A DNA stretch of 64,000 bases, taken from contig MHBG01000056.1 in NCBI GenBank assembly GCA_001804785.1, positions 1-64,000 on the forward strand, given 5' to 3'. Both the position numbers and the translations under genes were made by a program. The DNA comes from Lentisphaerae bacterium GWF2_45_14 (GTDB lineage: Bacteria > Verrucomicrobiota > Lentisphaeria > Victivallales > GWF2-45-14). Positions 26,364 to 61,859 of this stretch are shown here, piece after piece (position 1 is the first letter of the stretch; each line of letters begins with the position of its first letter). The notes under the pieces are model-generated. The model did not search any database. It was not told the origin of the DNA and saw only the letters and a list, made by a program, of their open reading frames with translations.

Positions 26364-29147
26364 CTACTCTGTTATTTTTATGTTATCGACAATCAGCCAT
26401 CCCCAGTATGGATTTGGCTGGTATTCGCAAGAATCCAATGCTTTTCCCCGATCCGGCACAGACAGTTCCGAAGTGATGTTTTTGATCGAAAATGTGTTTT
26501 TACCCTTCTTAAGTATGTTCTTTGGAATAGCAATTTTTCTGGTTCCGGGATGTTCGTAAAACTTTACTTGAGGGCTTTTTTGGTATACGGATTTGCCGTT
26601 TACGAAAACTTCAATGCCGCAATTACGTTCCTCTTGTCCAGTCACCGTCAATTCCATCTCATTCGAGGGGGCTTCGTCAAGAAACAAATCTGCGGAGACA
26701 ATGGATTTAAGCAATGCCGGTCTCCTTATCACAATATAGCTTCCATTCCTGGCAGGTTCTCCTCCGCTAAAAGCTGAAGCAGGCAGTTCCCATCCATTTT
26801 TAATCTTTTTCTGCAATATATTCTTCTTCTCTTTGAGGGCTGCGAGCGGGTTCGCTATAAGCTCTTTTATCGCAGGCTCATCATACCATTTTCCTTTAGC
26901 ATTGAGTTTTAAACCTGCTTTTCTCCAAAACCATTCTGTTATATTCTGATGATTTTTGTCCACGTAGAATATTTCTTCCTCTGCTGCAATCTGGGCGAAT
27001 TCCCTCAGATTATTTGCGAAGTCTTTTAGGTTCAAATCATTTACATTTGTGAAGGGATTGTTTTCATTCAAGTCGTTGTAAAGCAAAAACAATTTTTCGC
27101 CTTTGACGCGCCTCAGCAGTTTTGGATTGTCTTTTGACGCATTCTCTGCCGCGGCAAAGACTCTGTATGCTTTATTCTTGAAGTCGTCACTAATGACCCC
27201 GTAGTTGAAAATTTCGCAGTTTTGATGGATTTGACGTTCGTCAAATTGTTTATAGAGAAGGTCAAAATATTCGCGCATAAATGGGGCGGCTGGCCCGTAG
27301 TATTCTCTCATAAAGTTGTCTATTGCCTGTTCGACATCAATTCCGGGATACCAGAGCAGTTGCGAAATCACGTTGACAAACAGCGCGTTGAATTGCCTGG
27401 GAGTTCCGCAAAGAGTCAGTCCCGTTACCCCGTTTGCGCTGTAAAAGCGTATTTTCTCGACCATCGCATAGAACGAGCCGAAGATGCTCAAGGCCTCCTG
27501 CGCTCCTGATGGATAGTCAAAAACATACAGCTGGCCCGAAAAATTTTTAAACCACGCTGAAATTTCTGCCATCCCCTGGCTGTTGTGTTTACAGAACGCA
27601 TGACTGTGACACCACCATTTAGGCCTGAAGGGGCAATACGTCATACGCACATGAGGGGCAGGGTTTACCTTTACAGGCATTTTATCCGAGCCTTCGTAAA
27701 GAAACATAAAAAATATTTTGTCTGGATATTTCTCGGCCGCTTTTTCGCTCACCTTGTTCACAAATGCAAGGACTCTGTCGGTATAATTCCCCTCTTCAAC
27801 GTCCATGGCCTTGCAGTCTTTGCATACACATCTGTAATGATAGCCGTCGCCTTGGCCTATTGAAAAATATTTAGCCTGAGGCTCCAGTTCAATCCATTTG
27901 ATAAGGTTTTCCGACGCGAGCGCCTGAACTTTCGGGTTGGACATACAAAGATGGACAAAATCATCGCTGTCTCCCGGTTTATGAGAAAGCCTGTTTCCGT
28001 CTTTCTGCAAAGCAAAGTATTCTGGATGCTCTTTATGATATTTATCGAAGTTCACCAGAAAGCCGTTTGTGTGAATGGTTCCGCTTCTGCCTCCTATTTT
28101 TCGAGGGGACGCGATAAAGGAGTTTATCAAAAAATCAGAATTTAAATTTCCGCCGCCCGAACGGAATGCGAAGGCTGGCGTTCTTTTAAAGGCGACAGAG
28201 GCAAGGGGCAATGTCTCTATCTTGGGATATTCTATTTCCTTTGACGATAAAAATTTTACGCCGATGGACTTTAGAAATGCAGAGATTCCGGAGACAAGCC
28301 CCGGGGCATCTTTTCCAGCTATGCTTAAAACAAGGTCTTTGTTTTTTACAAAAAAACCTCCAGGGCCGACGTCTTTTAATTCTTCGTTCGATATTTTATT
28401 TGAATCAATGGCTGCTTTTCCTATCAGAATAGAGCCTTCAAAGTTTTCAGGCTGCTTTTCTGAAAGACAACTGACAGGGAGCAGTTCTCCTGTCATGTTA
28501 TATAGATGTTTTTGCAAAAATTTCGCAGCGATGTTGCCGTAATCATCTTGCGGTGATGATACATAGATGCTTTTACATTCGACCCGCCTGTCGGCCGAAG
28601 AAATAAATATTTTATTTTGCGCCGTTTTTGACGGCGGCAGCGGCCTCAGAGATATATATGAAGCATAGGCCAAAGTGTCGGGTGAATCGGAACTAAATGC
28701 CACTTGTATCAGGTCTAGTATTTTCTCCGGTGGAATTTGAAGTTCAATGCTTATATTATTCCATTCTTTTGACGGTCCAAAGCTCTTACTGAGAAGGGTC
28801 CAGTAGCTTTCCCTTTTTACTGTCTCAGGCAAGAAGGCCTGGATAAAAAGAGTCATACTTCCCGACTCAACTTTAAAGCGGGCATTCAACAAATACCTTT
28901 CGGAAACTTCGTGTGCAACGTCCATGCGCTGAAGAACTCGGAATTCTTTTTGCATGCGCATCCCTTCCTCGCTTTTGGAAACATTTCCAATCCCTTTGTC
29001 CATGCTCCATCCGAGCAATGTGTCAGTCAATGGAATAATTTTTGAGAAGTCCCCGTTTCTAATCAGTTCTTCTCTGGAACTTTCTGTGGAACAAGCCGAG
29101 TTAAAGATTGCCGAAAAAAGACCTAGTAGTAAAAAGATTTTCCTCAT
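26364..29147 (-). CDS. DUF4838-type secreted carbohydrate-active protein
   Basis: GH115/alpha-glucuronidase-like N-terminal region (YGNIAAKFLQKHLYNMTGELLPV); PEYFALQKDGNR; YFSIGQGDGYHYRCVCKDCKAMD; C-terminal jelly-roll-like domain. Confidence 0.72.
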   Translation of the reverse strand: MRKIFLLLGLFSAIFNSACSTESSREELIRNGDFSKIIPLTDTLLGWSMDKGIGNVSKSEEGMRMQKEFRVLQRMDVAHEVSERYLLNARFKVESGSMTLFIQAFLPETVKRESYWTLLSKSFGPSKEWNNISIELQIPPEKILDLIQVAFSSDSPDTLAYASYISLRPLPPSKTAQNKIFISSADRRVECKSIYVSSPQDDYGNIAAKFLQKHLYNMTGELLPVSCLSEKQPENFEGSILIGKAAIDSNKISNEELKDVGPGGFFVKNKDLVLSIAGKDAPGLVSGISAFLKSIGVKFLSSKEIEYPKIETLPLASVAFKRTPAFAFRSGGGNLNSDFLINSFIASPRKIGGRSGTIHTNGFLVNFDKYHKEHPEYFALQKDGNRLSHKPGDSDDFVHLCMSNPKVQALASENLIKWIELEPQAKYFSIGQGDGYHYRCVCKDCKAMDVEEGNYTDRVLAFVNKVSEKAAEKYPDKIFFMFLYEGSDKMPVKVNPAPHVRMTYCPFRPKWWCHSHAFCKHNSQGMAEISAWFKNFSGQLYVFDYPSGAQEALSIFGSFYAMVEKIRFYSANGVTGLTLCGTPRQFNALFVNVISQLLWYPGIDVEQAIDNFMREYYGPAAPFMREYFDLLYKQFDERQIHQNCEIFNYGVISDDFKNKAYRVFAAAENASKDNPKLLRRVKGEKLFLLYNDLNENNPFTNVNDLNLKDFANNLREFAQIAAEEEIFYVDKNHQNITEWFWRKAGLKLNAKGKWYDEPAIKELIANPLAALKEKKNILQKKIKNGWELPASAFSGGEPARNGSYIVIRRPALLKSIVSADLFLDEAPSNEMELTVTGQEERNCGIEVFVNGKSVYQKSPQVKFYEHPGTRKIAIPKNILKKGKNTFSIKNITSELSVPDRGKALDSCEYQPNPYWGWLIVDNIKITE

Positions 29148-29173: not shown

Positions 29174-30142
29174 TCATTCTAAATTTTTAACAGAATCTCT
29201 CTCAATCAATTGATTAGGTAAAACAATGCTTTCAGGGCCGTCGGCGCCCTGTTCTATGATTCTGACAAGGGTGTTTACGGTCTCTTCGCCAATGGCGTAT
29301 AATCCCTGATCAATTGTCGTGAGGGCAGGAGTAAGGTACTCAGATACGCCAACATTTTCAAAGCTTAATATTGAGACATCTTCAGGAATTCTGAAATTTA
29401 ACAGATTCAGGGCATGGGTAACCTCCAGTCCTATGTTTTCTCCCGCCGCAAATATTGCAGTTGGTTTATGCCTCATCATTTTCGCCATTATTTCAAGCGT
29501 ATTTCCACGAGGCGAGCTCGTGGAAATCAGGTTTTCCTCAACGGTTATGCCGTTTCTCGAAAGCTCCGACTTGAATCCTTTGGCGCGCTCCATGTCTCCC
29601 CAGTTCACCAGGTTGTTAAGCATGAGTCCTATTCTTCTGTGCCCCTTTGAAACAAGATATTCAACAGCTTTTCTGCTGCCCCCTCTGTGGTCGGAGCATA
29701 CGTGGGAGAGTCCCGGGATGAAATTATTTACCGTTACAATTGGCGTTCCTGTTTTTTCTCTGACCATTGCTGTTGTTTCTGGAGAATAAACCAGCGATAC
29801 AGCCCCTTTGACAAACCGCTCAAAATGATATTTATTCTCATGAAGGGGCACTATTTCGACTCCATAGCCCAGCTCTGCAGTTCTTTTCATTATTGAGTAA
29901 AATATAATGTTTTCATAGCCAGGTCGTTTGAAAGAATGAAGACCATTTATCAGAATGGCTATTTTCTTTTCAACTGTCGCAAACTTTGGTGTGTAATCTA
30001 ATTGCCGGGCGACACTCAGCACGTTGCTGGAGACCTCGTCTTTTACGTAGGGATGCTTGTTGAAAACCCTAGAAACGGTGCATGCCGAAACCCCGGCTTT
30101 TTTAGCAATGTCTTGAATGGTGATTTTCTGTTTAAGTCTCAT
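29174..30142 (-). CDS. LacI-family transcriptional regulator (start moved from 30184 to the ATG at 30142)
   Basis: KITIQDIAKKAGVSACTVSRVFNKHPYVKDEV HTH; track start at 30184 lies at or upstream of the expected transcription start of the consensus promoter. Confidence 0.92.
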   Translation of the reverse strand: MRLKQKITIQDIAKKAGVSACTVSRVFNKHPYVKDEVSSNVLSVARQLDYTPKFATVEKKIAILINGLHSFKRPGYENIIFYSIMKRTAELGYGVEIVPLHENKYHFERFVKGAVSLVYSPETTAMVREKTGTPIVTVNNFIPGLSHVCSDHRGGSRKAVEYLVSKGHRRIGLMLNNLVNWGDMERAKGFKSELSRNGITVEENLISTSSPRGNTLEIMAKMMRHKPTAIFAAGENIGLEVTHALNLLNFRIPEDVSILSFENVGVSEYLTPALTTIDQGLYAIGEETVNTLVRIIEQGADGPESIVLPNQLIERDSVKNLE

Positions 30143-30187
30143 TTTTGTAAAAAAAACATCTTTTGTGAAATTTTTAGCATGCACCGG

Positions 30188-30216
30188 ATTATAGCATCGA
30201 AATTTTGTTTTGTCAA
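30188..30216 (-). promoter_or_regulatory. Perfect-consensus sigma70 promoter for the LacI-family regulator
   Basis: Minus strand TTGACA-aaacaaaatttcgatgc(17)-TATAAT. Confidence 0.85.
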
Positions 30217-30328
30217 TATTTTTTTGAATTTATTGAGTTTATTGCTCCAAAATGACTTTTGACGGTCGCGTCCGTCTTGCAAAGATGTGCAAATTGCCGG
30301 AACAGTATTGAAAGTTGAGTAGTTTTGA
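30211..30328. repeat. 118-bp direct repeat, copy 1
   Basis: 114 of 118 positions identical by manual alignment to 31978-32095. Confidence 0.93.
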
Positions 30329-30385
30329 TGGATTTGACGTTCATCGAATTGCTTATAGAGAAGGTCAAAATATTCACGCATAAAT
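30321..30385 (-). pseudogene. ~65-bp fragment duplicated from the DUF4838 gene
   Basis: Near-identical to 27218-27282 (agttttgatggatttgacgtt...cgcataaat); minus frame encodes MREYFDLLYKQFDERQIHQN in both. Confidence 0.85.
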
Positions 30386-30390
30386 ATGGC

Positions 30391-31773
30391 TCAGACGGCA
30401 ATATCTTCCGGGGACTCTTCTCTTTTTCCCTCTGGGGAACCACCGAAAAGAGCCGTACTAAGGGTCAGGGGGCCTACCCTGCCGCAAAACATCAGAAGAA
30501 TGATGACTATTTTGCCGATTGTGCTTAGTCCTGAAGTAATTCCCATGCTCAGGCCGACGGTGCCGATTGCCGACGCCGCTTCGAAGAAATTTTTCTCAAA
30601 TGATGTCATCTCGGAAAGTTCCAGCAGGTAAGCTCCAATGGACAGGGCGATCAGGTAAAGTCCGATGTTGGAAACTGCTATCCAGATGCGTTCGCGCGGA
30701 ACAACCCTTCCCCAGAAATGAACGTCCGATTCGCTGTTGATCGTACTCCTCATAACGCCGAGGACTGCCGTAACGCTTGTTACCTTGATCCCGCCGCCTG
30801 TCCCTGACGGCGACGAACCTATTATCATAAGTACGGTCAGAACCAGTACCGACGACTTGGACAGATCGGCTATGCTGACACTGTTGAAACCCGTTGTCGT
30901 TATCGCGTTCATGCACTGAAAGAACGCGGCGAGGATGCGTTTTTCAGGAGCCATGTGCTGGATGGAAGGCTCTGCCAGAAAAAGGTGTGCAGTCCCGATA
31001 AATGTAAGAGCGAGTGTCGCCGATAATATGATTTTCGTAGTCAGCGTGACTTGTTTTGAACTGCCGATAAATATTCTTCCGAAGTCGACACATACTATGA
31101 ACCCGACCGCTCCCAGGTAACCCAACGCCGCAGTCACCGCGTTCAGCCAAAAGTTTCCGGCAAATGCTTCAAAACTGTTGTTGTAGAGTGAAAAACCGGC
31201 GGTGCAGAATGACGATACACTGTGAAAAATCGAACTCCATAACGGATAGTCGACATTCGCATTCCGGAAACACGGATAGTATGCAGCAACGCCGCAGGCT
31301 TCGATGAACACCGTGAAAAACACTACCCCCAATATGAATCTGTCGATCTTGAATCCTTCGGGCAGGCTGAATACGGTATGGCTGACGGCTTTTCTGACGT
31401 CGGGAAGCTCCCTTCTTTGCGCAAGGACGAGAAAGGAACCTAGTGTCATGTAGCCGATACCGCCAAGCTGAATCAGGAAAAGTATGACGACCTGCCCGAA
31501 AAAACTGTAATTGTCGGCAATGCTGACGGTCACAAGTCCGGTCGTCGAGATCGCCGAGACTGTCGTGAATAGATTGTCGAGTGCGCCCACTTTATTTCCT
31601 TCCATGGACAGAGGAAGCGAAAGAGCGAACCAGCCCACGACGATGTACGAAAGATACCCGAAGAGCGCGATCCTTGCAGGATGCAGACTGCTAAAAGTAC
31701 GGCAGGCGCCTTTGCACGATGAAATGAATCTGTGCAAATACGCTCCGCCATCCGGAATACCGGATGCGTTCAT
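30391..31773 (-). CDS. TrkH/KtrB-family potassium uptake protein
   Basis: STTGLVTVSIAD; CTAGFSLYNNS; TTGFNSVSIAD; GTVGLSMGITS four P-loop motifs; GGIKVTSVTAVLGV; SD AGGAGG at 31782-31787. Confidence 0.92.
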   Translation of the reverse strand: MNASGIPDGGAYLHRFISSCKGACRTFSSLHPARIALFGYLSYIVVGWFALSLPLSMEGNKVGALDNLFTTVSAISTTGLVTVSIADNYSFFGQVVILFLIQLGGIGYMTLGSFLVLAQRRELPDVRKAVSHTVFSLPEGFKIDRFILGVVFFTVFIEACGVAAYYPCFRNANVDYPLWSSIFHSVSSFCTAGFSLYNNSFEAFAGNFWLNAVTAALGYLGAVGFIVCVDFGRIFIGSSKQVTLTTKIILSATLALTFIGTAHLFLAEPSIQHMAPEKRILAAFFQCMNAITTTGFNSVSIADLSKSSVLVLTVLMIIGSSPSGTGGGIKVTSVTAVLGVMRSTINSESDVHFWGRVVPRERIWIAVSNIGLYLIALSIGAYLLELSEMTSFEKNFFEAASAIGTVGLSMGITSGLSTIGKIVIILLMFCGRVGPLTLSTALFGGSPEGKREESPEDIAV

Positions 31774-31791
31774 AATAAAAACCTCCTTTTT

Positions 31792-31816
31792 AAAACACGA
31801 GGAAAGCCTCGGTTTT
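31792..31816 (-). terminator. Intrinsic terminator (riboswitch expression platform)
   Basis: Minus strand AAAACCGAGG-CTTT-CCTCG-T-GTTTT; about 10-bp stem with one bulge ending in TTTT. Confidence 0.65.
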
Positions 31817-31829
31817 CCGGAGGTTCTCC

Positions 31830-31948
31830 TCTTCCATGCCTACGAGGTTAGCTGACGGGCTCGGGCGGAAGAGACTGCCCTACGCCTTGCGGCGATACGC
31901 CCCGATTGTAATGGGTCCCCCGTTTCCGCTCATGCGGAACTCGGCAAA
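31830..31948 (-). ncRNA. ydaO/yuaA-type cyclic-di-AMP riboswitch aptamer
   Basis: Minus strand GCCGAGUUCCGC...GGAAACGGGGGACCCAUUACAAUCGGGGCGUAUCGCC...GUAGGGCAGUCUCUUCCGCCCGAGCCCGUCAGCUAACCUCGUAGGC, matching the family consensus as remembered. Confidence 0.93.
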
Positions 31949-31954
31949 ACGCAT

Positions 31955-31983
31955 ATTATAATATATGTTATTGATGTTGTCAA
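31955..31983 (-). promoter_or_regulatory. Perfect-consensus sigma70 promoter for riboswitch-trkH
   Basis: Minus strand TTGACA-acatcaataacatatat(17)-TATAAT. Confidence 0.88.
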
Positions 31984-34178: not shown

Positions 34179-34838
34179 CTATCTTTTATGGTTTTGTTCG
34201 TCAAGCAGGGCATTGATTTCGTCATAGATGAAGTAAAAATATGAGGAATTTCCACTGCGGGCGCAACGACGGAGCGAGTCTCCTTTCTTGTGTGCCTTCA
34301 AAACACTGTAAAGTTCTCCGAGGGGAAGGAGTAGGAGAAGATTAAGATAGCGGATGAAAAGCAGTCCGCTGATGAATGAAATACACGCGATAAAAACAGC
34401 CCCCCAGGCACCGGTCGTTCCCAGCCTTCTGGCGTTCTTGTCAGCTTTTCCCATTGCTTCACGATTAAGTAAAGCCAGTTTCATGATACTTTTAATTTCC
34501 TTGTCAATAGCATTGACATCGCCTTCAAGGGCGGATTTGGAATACTTTTTTATTTCTGCCAGTATAGCAGGTTCACCCTTTTCGGTAATATTATTTTCCG
34601 CACGTTGAATAGCGTCGTAAAATCTCTTTTTGTCAGTATCTTCAAGTTTCCTGTTATTCATGATGGCAAGCTCCGCCAGCATTCCTTCGCAGGAGGCGAG
34701 GGATTTGTCATTTTCAGAAATGATTTTAGCTATGGCCGGAGTCATCCTGTTTAGCAACGCAACTGTTCCTGTCGCGAGGATGAGGTTCAGAATCAGTAGA
34801 AACCATGTTCCAAGAAGTAGAGACCTTCGCATTTTCAT
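34179..34838 (-). CDS. Membrane protein with two TM helices flanking a helical extracytoplasmic domain (4HB/HAMP-like, no kinase)
   Basis: TM near residues 7-28, helical region, TM near 148-168, short basic cytoplasmic tail; overlaps the TrkA-like gene by 4 bp. Confidence 0.6.
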   Translation of the reverse strand: MKMRRSLLLGTWFLLILNLILATGTVALLNRMTPAIAKIISENDKSLASCEGMLAELAIMNNRKLEDTDKKRFYDAIQRAENNITEKGEPAILAEIKKYSKSALEGDVNAIDKEIKSIMKLALLNREAMGKADKNARRLGTTGAWGAVFIACISFISGLLFIRYLNLLLLLPLGELYSVLKAHKKGDSLRRCARSGNSSYFYFIYDEINALLDEQNHKR

Positions 34839-35506
34839 GATTGACGGTTCTCCATGAGTTTCGCTATTGCATCGGGTTTTGAGATGACAATCAGGTTGTC
34901 TTCAGTATGCAGGACGGCTTGGGGGTTGGGCAGTGATATGGCGTCTGTTTTTGTACTGCGGATTGCTATGACGCTAATCTCGTAACGTTTAGGCAGCGAC
35001 AATTCCAGAAGCGTCGATCCGGCAAAATGCTCCGGTATCTGGATTTCGGTTATATGCAGGTCGCTTCCCAGCGGCATGTCACTGATTACTTTCGCATAGA
35101 TTAAACGGGATGAGAGTCGTTGTCCGAATTCCATTTCAGGGTTTACCACAAGGTGCGCACCGACAAGTTTCAGTATCCTGGCGTGAATCGTGTTGCAAGA
35201 CCTGGCTACTACTCTCGAAACGCCATATTGCCTAAGTAGCGCGGTGCAGATAATTGAGCTTTCTTTGGATTCTTCTCCTATGGCGCATATTGCCAAATCC
35301 CTGTTGGAGGGCATTGCCTGCGCAAGCGCGTTTTCATCAGTGGCATCAAGCTGGATGGCTTCTATTCCCAGGCCGGATACAATATCTACAAGTTCTTTGC
35401 TTCGGTCAATGGCTAATACGTCTATTCCTTTTTCTGACAATGATTTAGCGACAGACATGCCAAATTTCCCCATGCCTATTACCAATGCCTGTTGCGCCAT
35501 ATTCAT
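34835..35506 (-). CDS. TrkA/KtrA-type RCK potassium regulator
   Basis: QALVIGMGKFGMSVAKSLSEKGIDVLAIDRSKELVDIV; LDATDENALAQA; TrkA-C-like tail. Confidence 0.92.
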   Translation of the reverse strand: MNMAQQALVIGMGKFGMSVAKSLSEKGIDVLAIDRSKELVDIVSGLGIEAIQLDATDENALAQAMPSNRDLAICAIGEESKESSIICTALLRQYGVSRVVARSCNTIHARILKLVGAHLVVNPEMEFGQRLSSRLIYAKVISDMPLGSDLHITEIQIPEHFAGSTLLELSLPKRYEISVIAIRSTKTDAISLPNPQAVLHTEDNLIVISKPDAIAKLMENRQS

Positions 35507-35522
35507 TACTCCCGTTTTTTCA

Positions 35523-37580
35523 TTATGTGATTGGAATTTTAACTGATGGATACTGAGCGTTTTTCCTGAGAACCGGAGAGCTCAAAACCATGAACATAGT
35601 AAGAGGCCCTATTCTTCCCAGAAACATCGTAAGTATAATAATTACTTTGCCAATTTCGTCCAGCCGCTGAGTGGCTCCCGTTGACAAGCCGACTGTCCCC
35701 AGCGCGGAAAAAGCCTCGAATACGATATCCCGTACAGGAATTAACTGCGTGAGTTCCAGCGCCATCACCGAGATAAGTAAGAAAAGCAGTCCGGCTCCAA
35801 TCACGGCTATTGATTTGTAAACAGTTTCAAATTCAATTTTATGGTTTCTCACAACAATATCCGGACGACCTCTTACGATTGACGACATACACAACACAAA
35901 AACCGCCAGCGTAGTAGTTTTTATCCCGCCCGCGGTACTGCCAGGACTGCCGCCGATAAACATGAAAACCAGCATTATCAAATAAACGGGGGGGCTTATG
36001 CTCGAGATATCTATGGAATTGAATCCGGCCGTACGGAGTGTTGCCGATTGAAACCATGCGTTGTGAATTTTATCCGCATACGAGAGATTGCTAAGGGTTG
36101 AATTCCATTCCATAGCAGCGATGACAACCGTTCCAGAGAGAAGAAGCAGAGCCGAGGAAACCAGCACTAAAAAGGCGGGAGGCGAAACTCTCCTGCCGAA
36201 AATAAAATCAGGAATAAACGCACATACGGCAGGAGAAAGCCCCCCGAGGATAATCAGTATTGCCACAATATGCAGAATTAACGGATGTTGCTGATAATCC
36301 ATGAGACTGTTGGACTGCAAGGCAAATCCAGCATTGCAGAAAGCAGATATAGACGTAAAAACTCCTCTCCATAACGCTGTTAAGATATTGTCTTCGCGAA
36401 GATAGAAGAGGATTGTGAGAATGATAGCTCCGATGCTTTCGGCCAAGAGTGTAAATACGAGTACTCTGCGCAAAGACTTATAAAGTTGTCCGTGCTCATT
36501 GCCGTTCACCGTCGCTAAAATCCGTTCCTGTCTTAAACTGAAACGCTTTCCAATAGCATGCAAGGCTATTGTTGCTATTGCCATTATTCCTAATCCCCCG
36601 GCTTGTATAAGCAGAAGAATGAAAAACTGTCCAGTAATAGAAAAATCTACCGGAGTATCCAGAACTATAAGCCCGGTTACACACACCGCGCTTACTGAAG
36701 TGAATGCGGCATCTATAGGAGCTATCCATTTATCCGAAGCGGAAGCCGCGGGAAGCATAAGTAAAAGCGTCCCGACAGTTATCAATCCGAAAAAAGTTGA
36801 GACAAGTAGTCTTGCAGGATGCCCCAAAAGTGGTTCAATCCATGAAGTGTCTTCCGTTTTTGAAGTCAGGGACTGAGGCAGAAAAACAAGGCATCCAACA
36901 GGCCATAAAATAGAAAAACCAATCAGATGCTCATTATGCACAAAACCGGAAATAACAACAATCAAAACCAGAAGAAAAAAGAGAATGTTCAGCCATGCAC
37001 GAATCCTGTGAGAATCCCTGATCGACCACAATATTCCCAGTGTTCCGGCAATTAATCCGCATACCGCCGCAGTCGACGGTACCAGCATATAGTGTCCCCT
37101 GTAAAAGACAAAAGTGATAACCAGAAACGGTATCGCCGCGATTGCCGCAGAACGCGCCCTGAATAAAATACGCTCCATTTGCTTTATGCTGCGATAAACG
37201 TTTCTTGCCTTCGGCATGTTTTCGCTTACAAAATATACGAAAAAAGATAATCCGACGACAGTGAGCAGCGTCCCCATCGGAGATGTCAATATTTTAGGCA
37301 GACACGCCGAAGCTGAAAGGAAAAAACCGCTGAATGCAAAAAGTTTTGCCAATCCCGGACTTGTCGGACAGTATATTATACCTGCGAGAATAGAAATGGC
37401 CGACAAAGAAAATATAACAGCTATCCACGGCATATGAAGCAAAGAACTAAGTCCATAAGACCACGAGCAAATAAGAAGCGGGATTACAGTAAGGGTATAA
37501 AGGACACCTTCCAGTTTCAACGCCTGTAACGCCGAATTTGGAATATCGTCATTGTCTGATTTTTTAAACACAAAAGTCAT
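35523..37580 (-). CDS. TrkH-family potassium transporter with about 230-aa N-terminal membrane extension
   Basis: C-terminal TrkH motifs (VTGLIVLDT, CNAGFALQSN, TAGFNSIDIS, GTVGLSTGATQ); extra multi-TM N-terminus. Confidence 0.9.
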   Translation of the reverse strand: MTFVFKKSDNDDIPNSALQALKLEGVLYTLTVIPLLICSWSYGLSSLLHMPWIAVIFSLSAISILAGIIYCPTSPGLAKLFAFSGFFLSASACLPKILTSPMGTLLTVVGLSFFVYFVSENMPKARNVYRSIKQMERILFRARSAAIAAIPFLVITFVFYRGHYMLVPSTAAVCGLIAGTLGILWSIRDSHRIRAWLNILFFLLVLIVVISGFVHNEHLIGFSILWPVGCLVFLPQSLTSKTEDTSWIEPLLGHPARLLVSTFFGLITVGTLLLMLPAASASDKWIAPIDAAFTSVSAVCVTGLIVLDTPVDFSITGQFFILLLIQAGGLGIMAIATIALHAIGKRFSLRQERILATVNGNEHGQLYKSLRRVLVFTLLAESIGAIILTILFYLREDNILTALWRGVFTSISAFCNAGFALQSNSLMDYQQHPLILHIVAILIILGGLSPAVCAFIPDFIFGRRVSPPAFLVLVSSALLLLSGTVVIAAMEWNSTLSNLSYADKIHNAWFQSATLRTAGFNSIDISSISPPVYLIMLVFMFIGGSPGSTAGGIKTTTLAVFVLCMSSIVRGRPDIVVRNHKIEFETVYKSIAVIGAGLLFLLISVMALELTQLIPVRDIVFEAFSALGTVGLSTGATQRLDEIGKVIIILTMFLGRIGPLTMFMVLSSPVLRKNAQYPSVKIPIT

Positions 37581-61817: not shown

Positions 61818-61844
61818 GAATTATAAGTGAATTATAAGTGAATT
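61818..61844. repeat. 11-bp tandem direct repeat GAATTATAAGT x2 plus partial third
   Basis: Each full unit contains a TATAAT on the minus strand. Confidence 0.85.
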
Positions 61845-61859
61845 GTTTTGTTTTGTCAA
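61831..61859 (-). promoter_or_regulatory. Perfect-consensus sigma70 promoter for the GntR/LacI-type regulator
   Basis: Minus strand TTGACA-aaacaaaacaattcact(17)-TATAAT. Confidence 0.87.

Follow-up and report, generated by a model that had tools for sequence, protein, structure and literature searches.

A predicted c-di-AMP riboswitch before trkH in Lentisphaerae bacterium GWF2_45_14 and the competing folds of its expression platform

Riboswitches for c-di-AMP have been predicted before the potassium transport genes ktr, trk, kdp and kup in several phyla, Verrucomicrobia among them, and in the one that precedes kdpFABC in B. thuringiensis, c-di-AMP promotes intrinsic termination (PMC6488665). 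The architecture of the aptamer is known from the crystal structure of a T. tengcongensis RNA, which contains two c-di-AMP molecules and whose sequence is printed in PMC5393176. Since those predictions already extended to trk and to Verrucomicrobia (PMC6488665), the riboswitch predicted here adds a member to a known class, and what the analysis adds to prior knowledge is a corrected expression platform and a trkH pattern across the order.

The trkH leader and its aptamer

In the window, by which we mean the whole 64-kb stretch of DNA that was analysed, the minus strand between 31983 and 31773 carries, in order, a promoter, an RF00379 aptamer, a hairpin, an AAGGAGG and the ATG of trkH. A sequence-only reading of this DNA had proposed a ydaO/yuaA-like c-di-AMP aptamer here, and the covariance-model search on which that proposal turned was significant: RF00379 matched over the full model (1-134) at 31822-31956 on the minus strand, with 94.5 bits and an E-value of 5.2e-21 (Rfam gathering cut-off, 38 bits). 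Helix P1 begins with UGCC at 31946; the ten positions at the start of the model are unpaired and partly overlap the promoter. The conserved core sequences of the family, GGGGGACCC, GUAGGG and CCCGUCAGCUAACCUCG, are all present, and the core as a whole (ACGGGGGACCCA / GUAGGG / CCCGAGCCCGUCAGCUAACCUCG) is nearly identical to that of the crystallised T. tengcongensis RNA (sequence from PMC5393176). The loop-tail pseudoknot is present as CUCUUCC:GGAAGAG (minus strand, 5' strand at 31867-31873 and 3' strand at 31829-31835), a helix that in most relatives has kept its pairing with the sequence changed on both sides, for example CUUCUAAA:UUUAGAAG in relative L006 and UUUAAUGG:UCAUUAAA in L015, in a search that selected a different match in a few rows; the pairing also exists in the T. 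tengcongensis sequence. The aptamer is intact, has the top RF00379 score across the 388 phylum genomes sampled, and is the only match in its own genome, which is 89% complete. By sequence and structure, the leader element is a c-di-AMP riboswitch, and would be expected to bind that ligand.

Situated 48 nt upstream of trkH, the aptamer lies in the leader of a gene of potassium physiology. The product of trkH (30391-31773, minus strand, 460 aa) matched PF02386 with an E-value of 4.2e-45, which upheld the earlier identification of a potassium transporter as the target; it also matched TIGR00933 (E 4.6e-79) at a score below the cut-off of that model, and no trkA lies adjacent to the gene. The ribosome-binding site and start codon that had been read from the sequence were likewise found, as AAGGAGG at 31788-31782 and an ATG at 31773, and so was the perfect sigma-70-type promoter, TTGACA-N17-TATAAT, at 31955-31983 on the minus strand (12 of 12 positions). 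Transcription would be expected to start at about 31950-31947, a few bases 5' of P1, and since the -10 element ends some nine bases before that helix, the transcript should begin almost directly with P1. Three such perfect sites occur in the window, where shuffles predict 0.01, a number well beyond chance. One of the others (30188-30216, minus strand) ends only four bases before the GTG listed as the start of a lacI-like ORF (29174-30184), so that the true start of this gene is probably further downstream, and the third is at 61831-61859 (minus strand). Between the lacI-like gene and trkH, 83 bp at 30308-30390 are an 88% copy of 27205-27287, inside a DUF4838 gene (26364-29147), and are a duplication remnant.

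A second trkH (685 aa) is located 3-6 kb away, at 34179-37580 on the minus strand, together with a 223-aa single-unit trkA and a 219-aa ORF that has no Pfam match; no riboswitch was found before these genes in a scan of the window. The 223-aa protein carries a TrkA_C domain, a domain that binds c-di-AMP in some relatives, and by analogy potassium may possibly be under c-di-AMP control at the protein level as well. Contamination of the contig was considered and is disfavoured, as the nearest relative (64%) of this second trkH, which lies within the window 4-6 kb from the riboswitch, comes from the organism's own order.

The genome encodes one diadenylate cyclase domain, which resides in a CdaA that scored 215.9 bits against TIGR00159 (NCBIfam equivalog cut-off, 188.8), its gene being flanked by a folP-like ORF and, following it, a YbbR/CdaR-like ORF (G000:C53, L002 353-3077). 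A PgpH-like 7TM-HD protein and a stand-alone DHH-DHHA1 protein are also encoded. The cyclase above its equivalog cut-off, the PgpH-like protein and the RF00379 match together favour the earlier supposition that the organism makes c-di-AMP.

Competing folds in the expression platform

Downstream of the aptamer the leader can adopt mutually competing folds. The proposed ON-state hairpin (31799-31831, minus strand; -17.5 kcal/mol), which would act as an antiterminator and as an anti-anti-Shine-Dalgarno element, pairs GAGGAGA with UUUCCUC and CCUC with GAGG, and requires part of the 3' strand of the pseudoknot. Its competitor is a terminator-like hairpin, AAAAC-CGAGG-CUUU-CCUCG-U-GUUUU (31792-31816, minus strand; -10.1 kcal/mol), the core stem of which, CGAGG-CTTT-CCTCG, is at 31811-31798 and can be lengthened to AAAAC...GTTTT if one T is bulged. 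In the third fold this small hairpin is nested in a 10-bp helix (31828-31819/31786-31777) that hides the ribosome-binding site: by sequence and folding, an anti-Shine-Dalgarno strand, GAGAACCUCC (31819-31828, minus strand), pairs with the segment formed by AAGGAGG and UUUUU (31777-31788, minus strand), for -24.3 kcal/mol when folded to the start codon.

Compared with dinucleotide shuffles, the nested fold is outstanding (-24.3 versus -12.6 +/- 2.9 kcal/mol, about 1 in 1000 shuffles being as stable) and the ON-state hairpin is moderately unusual (1.2% as stable), whereas neither the small hairpin alone (6.8%) nor the difference in energy between the states with the pseudoknot strand free and occupied (matched by 9.8%) is unusual. 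The anti-Shine-Dalgarno match itself had a p of about 0.04 in the window leader. The built-in terminator of the sequence-only reading thus stands as a hairpin, but its function as a terminator is uncertain: the U-tract, UGUUUUAAAA, is weak, the computed d-score is about -35 by a d'Aubenton-Carafa-type E. coli rule, and the hairpin is nested in the helix that hides the ribosome-binding site. Terminator-like sites in the 1 kb around it numbered one, against 1.0 expected.

In simulated growth of the transcript, with folding programs that model neither pseudoknot nor ligand, the stem of the small hairpin had, when the 3' end had reached 31791, a probability of 0.00 if the pseudoknot strand was left free and of 0.80 if it was occupied. 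Once the ribosome-binding site had been made, the nested fold dominated with the strand free or occupied, and in the full-length RNA at equilibrium the anti-Shine-Dalgarno pairing had a probability of 0.98 in either case. The ribosome-binding site was open only while the 31831-31799 hairpin persisted, which it did not at equilibrium, and was paired with a probability of 0.98 in the proxy for the bound state.

The leader in related genomes

Genomes with an RF00379 match numbered at least 24 of 388 in the phylum and at least 5 of 137 in the order, where a cyclase was found in at least 131 of 137; the large genome searches were run with stricter filters, so that these counts are lower bounds, and by them the cyclase is nearly universal in the order and the riboswitch rare. 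In all five order carriers (the window and relatives L006, L014, L017 and L027) the aptamer precedes trkH and is itself preceded by a TTGACA-N17-TATAAT-like site (10-12 of 12 positions) that ends at most four bases from the start of the aptamer model. The four relatives thus resemble the window in having the aptamer before trkH, the promoter abutting it and a hairpin just 5' of the ribosome-binding site, but their aptamers are of 166-170 nt and start GCCUAA, where that of the window is of 135 nt and starts GCCGAG, and their platforms are longer (92-106 nt) and, unlike that of the window, include a CACUC segment.

In L006, L014 and L027 the stretch from the aptamer to the ribosome-binding site yielded no hairpin-plus-U-tract, and the sole such site in L017 overlaps the ribosome-binding site. 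The CACUC segment of the four relatives is able to pair with either the ribosome-binding site or the aptamer tail; an alignment of the four longer platforms brought the CACUC of L014, L017 and L027 together and placed that of L006 differently. An exploratory segment search for a shared anti-Shine-Dalgarno/tail segment across the five leaders gave single p values of 0.03-0.49 and a combined value of 0.03, so that its excess over shuffles is only marginal. In the ensembles, the ribosome-binding site was for the most part as accessible as in shuffles, with the exception of the switch in L014 and L027.

A tree of TrkH proteins grouped the window protein with three members of the phylum that have no aptamer (100/97) and placed the other four riboswitch-linked proteins in a clade of their own (100/99), separate from that of the window. 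The surroundings of the close TrkH relatives without an aptamer (L058-L060, L026) were scanned for weak RF00379 matches and contained none. Together with the compact form of the window aptamer, the tree suggests either two acquisitions of the riboswitch or its loss in the other three. The region near one of these TrkH genes (L059, 3267-3398, plus strand) had a near-threshold match (E 0.002) to a SAM-I/IV riboswitch, its 40.3 bits falling short of the cut-off of 41.1. In the rest of the phylum, the ORFs that follow RF00379 matches resembled, by eye, other ion transporters, band-7-like proteins and a citrate-synthase-like protein. By the same inspection, an 86.3-bit aptamer in L004 is about 62 nt before a citrate-synthase-like ORF, an unusual target, and those in L010, L021, L022 and L024 precede band-7/flotillin-like ORFs, a less usual one.

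A possible mechanism and its place among known systems

We propose, with belief and doubt evenly balanced, that a real c-di-AMP riboswitch is present here and turns trkH off mainly by sequestration of the Shine-Dalgarno sequence. The direction is most likely OFF: high c-di-AMP, and hence high potassium, would shut down trkH. With ligand bound, the aptamer pseudoknot would hold GGAAGAG (31835-31829), and the remainder of the leader would fold into the hairpin at 31816-31792 within the helix 31828-31819/31786-31777, hiding the ribosome-binding site. With no ligand, part of the pseudoknot strand would join the 31831-31799 hairpin, breaking the small hairpin and removing one strand of the helix, and polymerase would read on with the nascent ribosome-binding site open. 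Sequestration of that site would be the main output, to which termination at the weak U-tract may add. Because the ribosome-binding site is predicted closed at equilibrium in both states, such a translational switch would need a kinetic decision during transcription.

How the unliganded state is reached had been read differently from the sequence, with AACCUCG of the conserved aptamer segment pairing to CGAGG of the terminator stem as the antiterminator. The complementarity exists (AACCTCG at 31849-31843, CGAGG at 31811-31807), but it amounts to five continuous pairs at long distance, and in constrained folds of the full leader forcing it gave -49.5 kcal/mol, versus -57.5 with the local antiterminator and -59.1 unconstrained; at a cost of some 8-10 kcal/mol and an ensemble probability of 0.00, this long-range pairing was rejected on energy and is very improbable. 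In the folding models the stronger rival is the local hairpin 31831-31799, to which the pseudoknot strand contributes. That same hairpin would serve as antiterminator if the riboswitch instead turned trkH off by intrinsic termination at the hairpin 31816-31792, an account that we regard as possible though rather doubtful. The clean decision in the simulated transcript is fitted more simply by a terminator than by a translational switch, at least as modelled, and kdpFABC of B. thuringiensis offers a precedent for ligand-promoted termination (PMC6488665). Yet termination would have to occur at the U-tract described above, with its score far below zero by the E. coli rule, and at a hairpin no better than shuffles; in three of the four relatives it lacks a hairpin-plus-U-tract counterpart in the interval from aptamer to ribosome-binding site, and it leaves the 10-bp helix that covers this site in the window without explanation. 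Given the weak U-tract, the negative score and the position of the hairpin inside that helix, translational control is no less likely than termination, and the strength of the nested fold and the relatives' platforms also argue for it.

Should the riboswitch turn trkH on, or the aptamer be a relic without regulation, the prediction that the full-length RNA is closed in both states would be accommodated, and neither direction nor activity can be read from sequence. Both are nevertheless improbable: an increase of potassium uptake by c-di-AMP would contradict known physiology, a relic would hardly be expected to retain an intact, top-scoring aptamer beneath a perfect promoter, and the studied potassium members of the family are OFF switches (PMC6488665). 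Extending the preferred reading, sequestration of the ribosome-binding site, to the group is more tentative, and here our doubt slightly exceeds our confidence: its c-di-AMP riboswitches may mainly hide the trkH ribosome-binding site by an anti-Shine-Dalgarno strand released on pseudoknot formation, rather than use the usual terminator, and the window aptamer, its TrkH grouping with riboswitch-less relatives, may have been acquired independently of those of the order.

Existing knowledge of the c-di-AMP riboswitch class is unchanged by this member, which provides a clean, strongly scoring unit of riboswitch and trkH from a lineage that has been little studied and, if its output is on translation, would usefully illustrate a c-di-AMP platform based on the pseudoknot strand. 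Like the rest of RF00379, it matches the covariance model over its full length, has the conserved core and the tail pseudoknot, and precedes a potassium transporter gene; it is unlike the class in its compact, 135-nt form, in a short platform with 47 nt separating the pseudoknot strand from the ribosome-binding site, and in having a nested anti-Shine-Dalgarno helix and not a canonical U-tract terminator. With the kdpFABC riboswitch of B. thuringiensis it shares the aptamer family, a role in potassium uptake and an expected OFF state at high ligand, but there the target is KdpFABC and a canonical terminator lies 143 bp before the start codon (PMC6488665), whereas the hairpin of the window abuts the ribosome-binding site.
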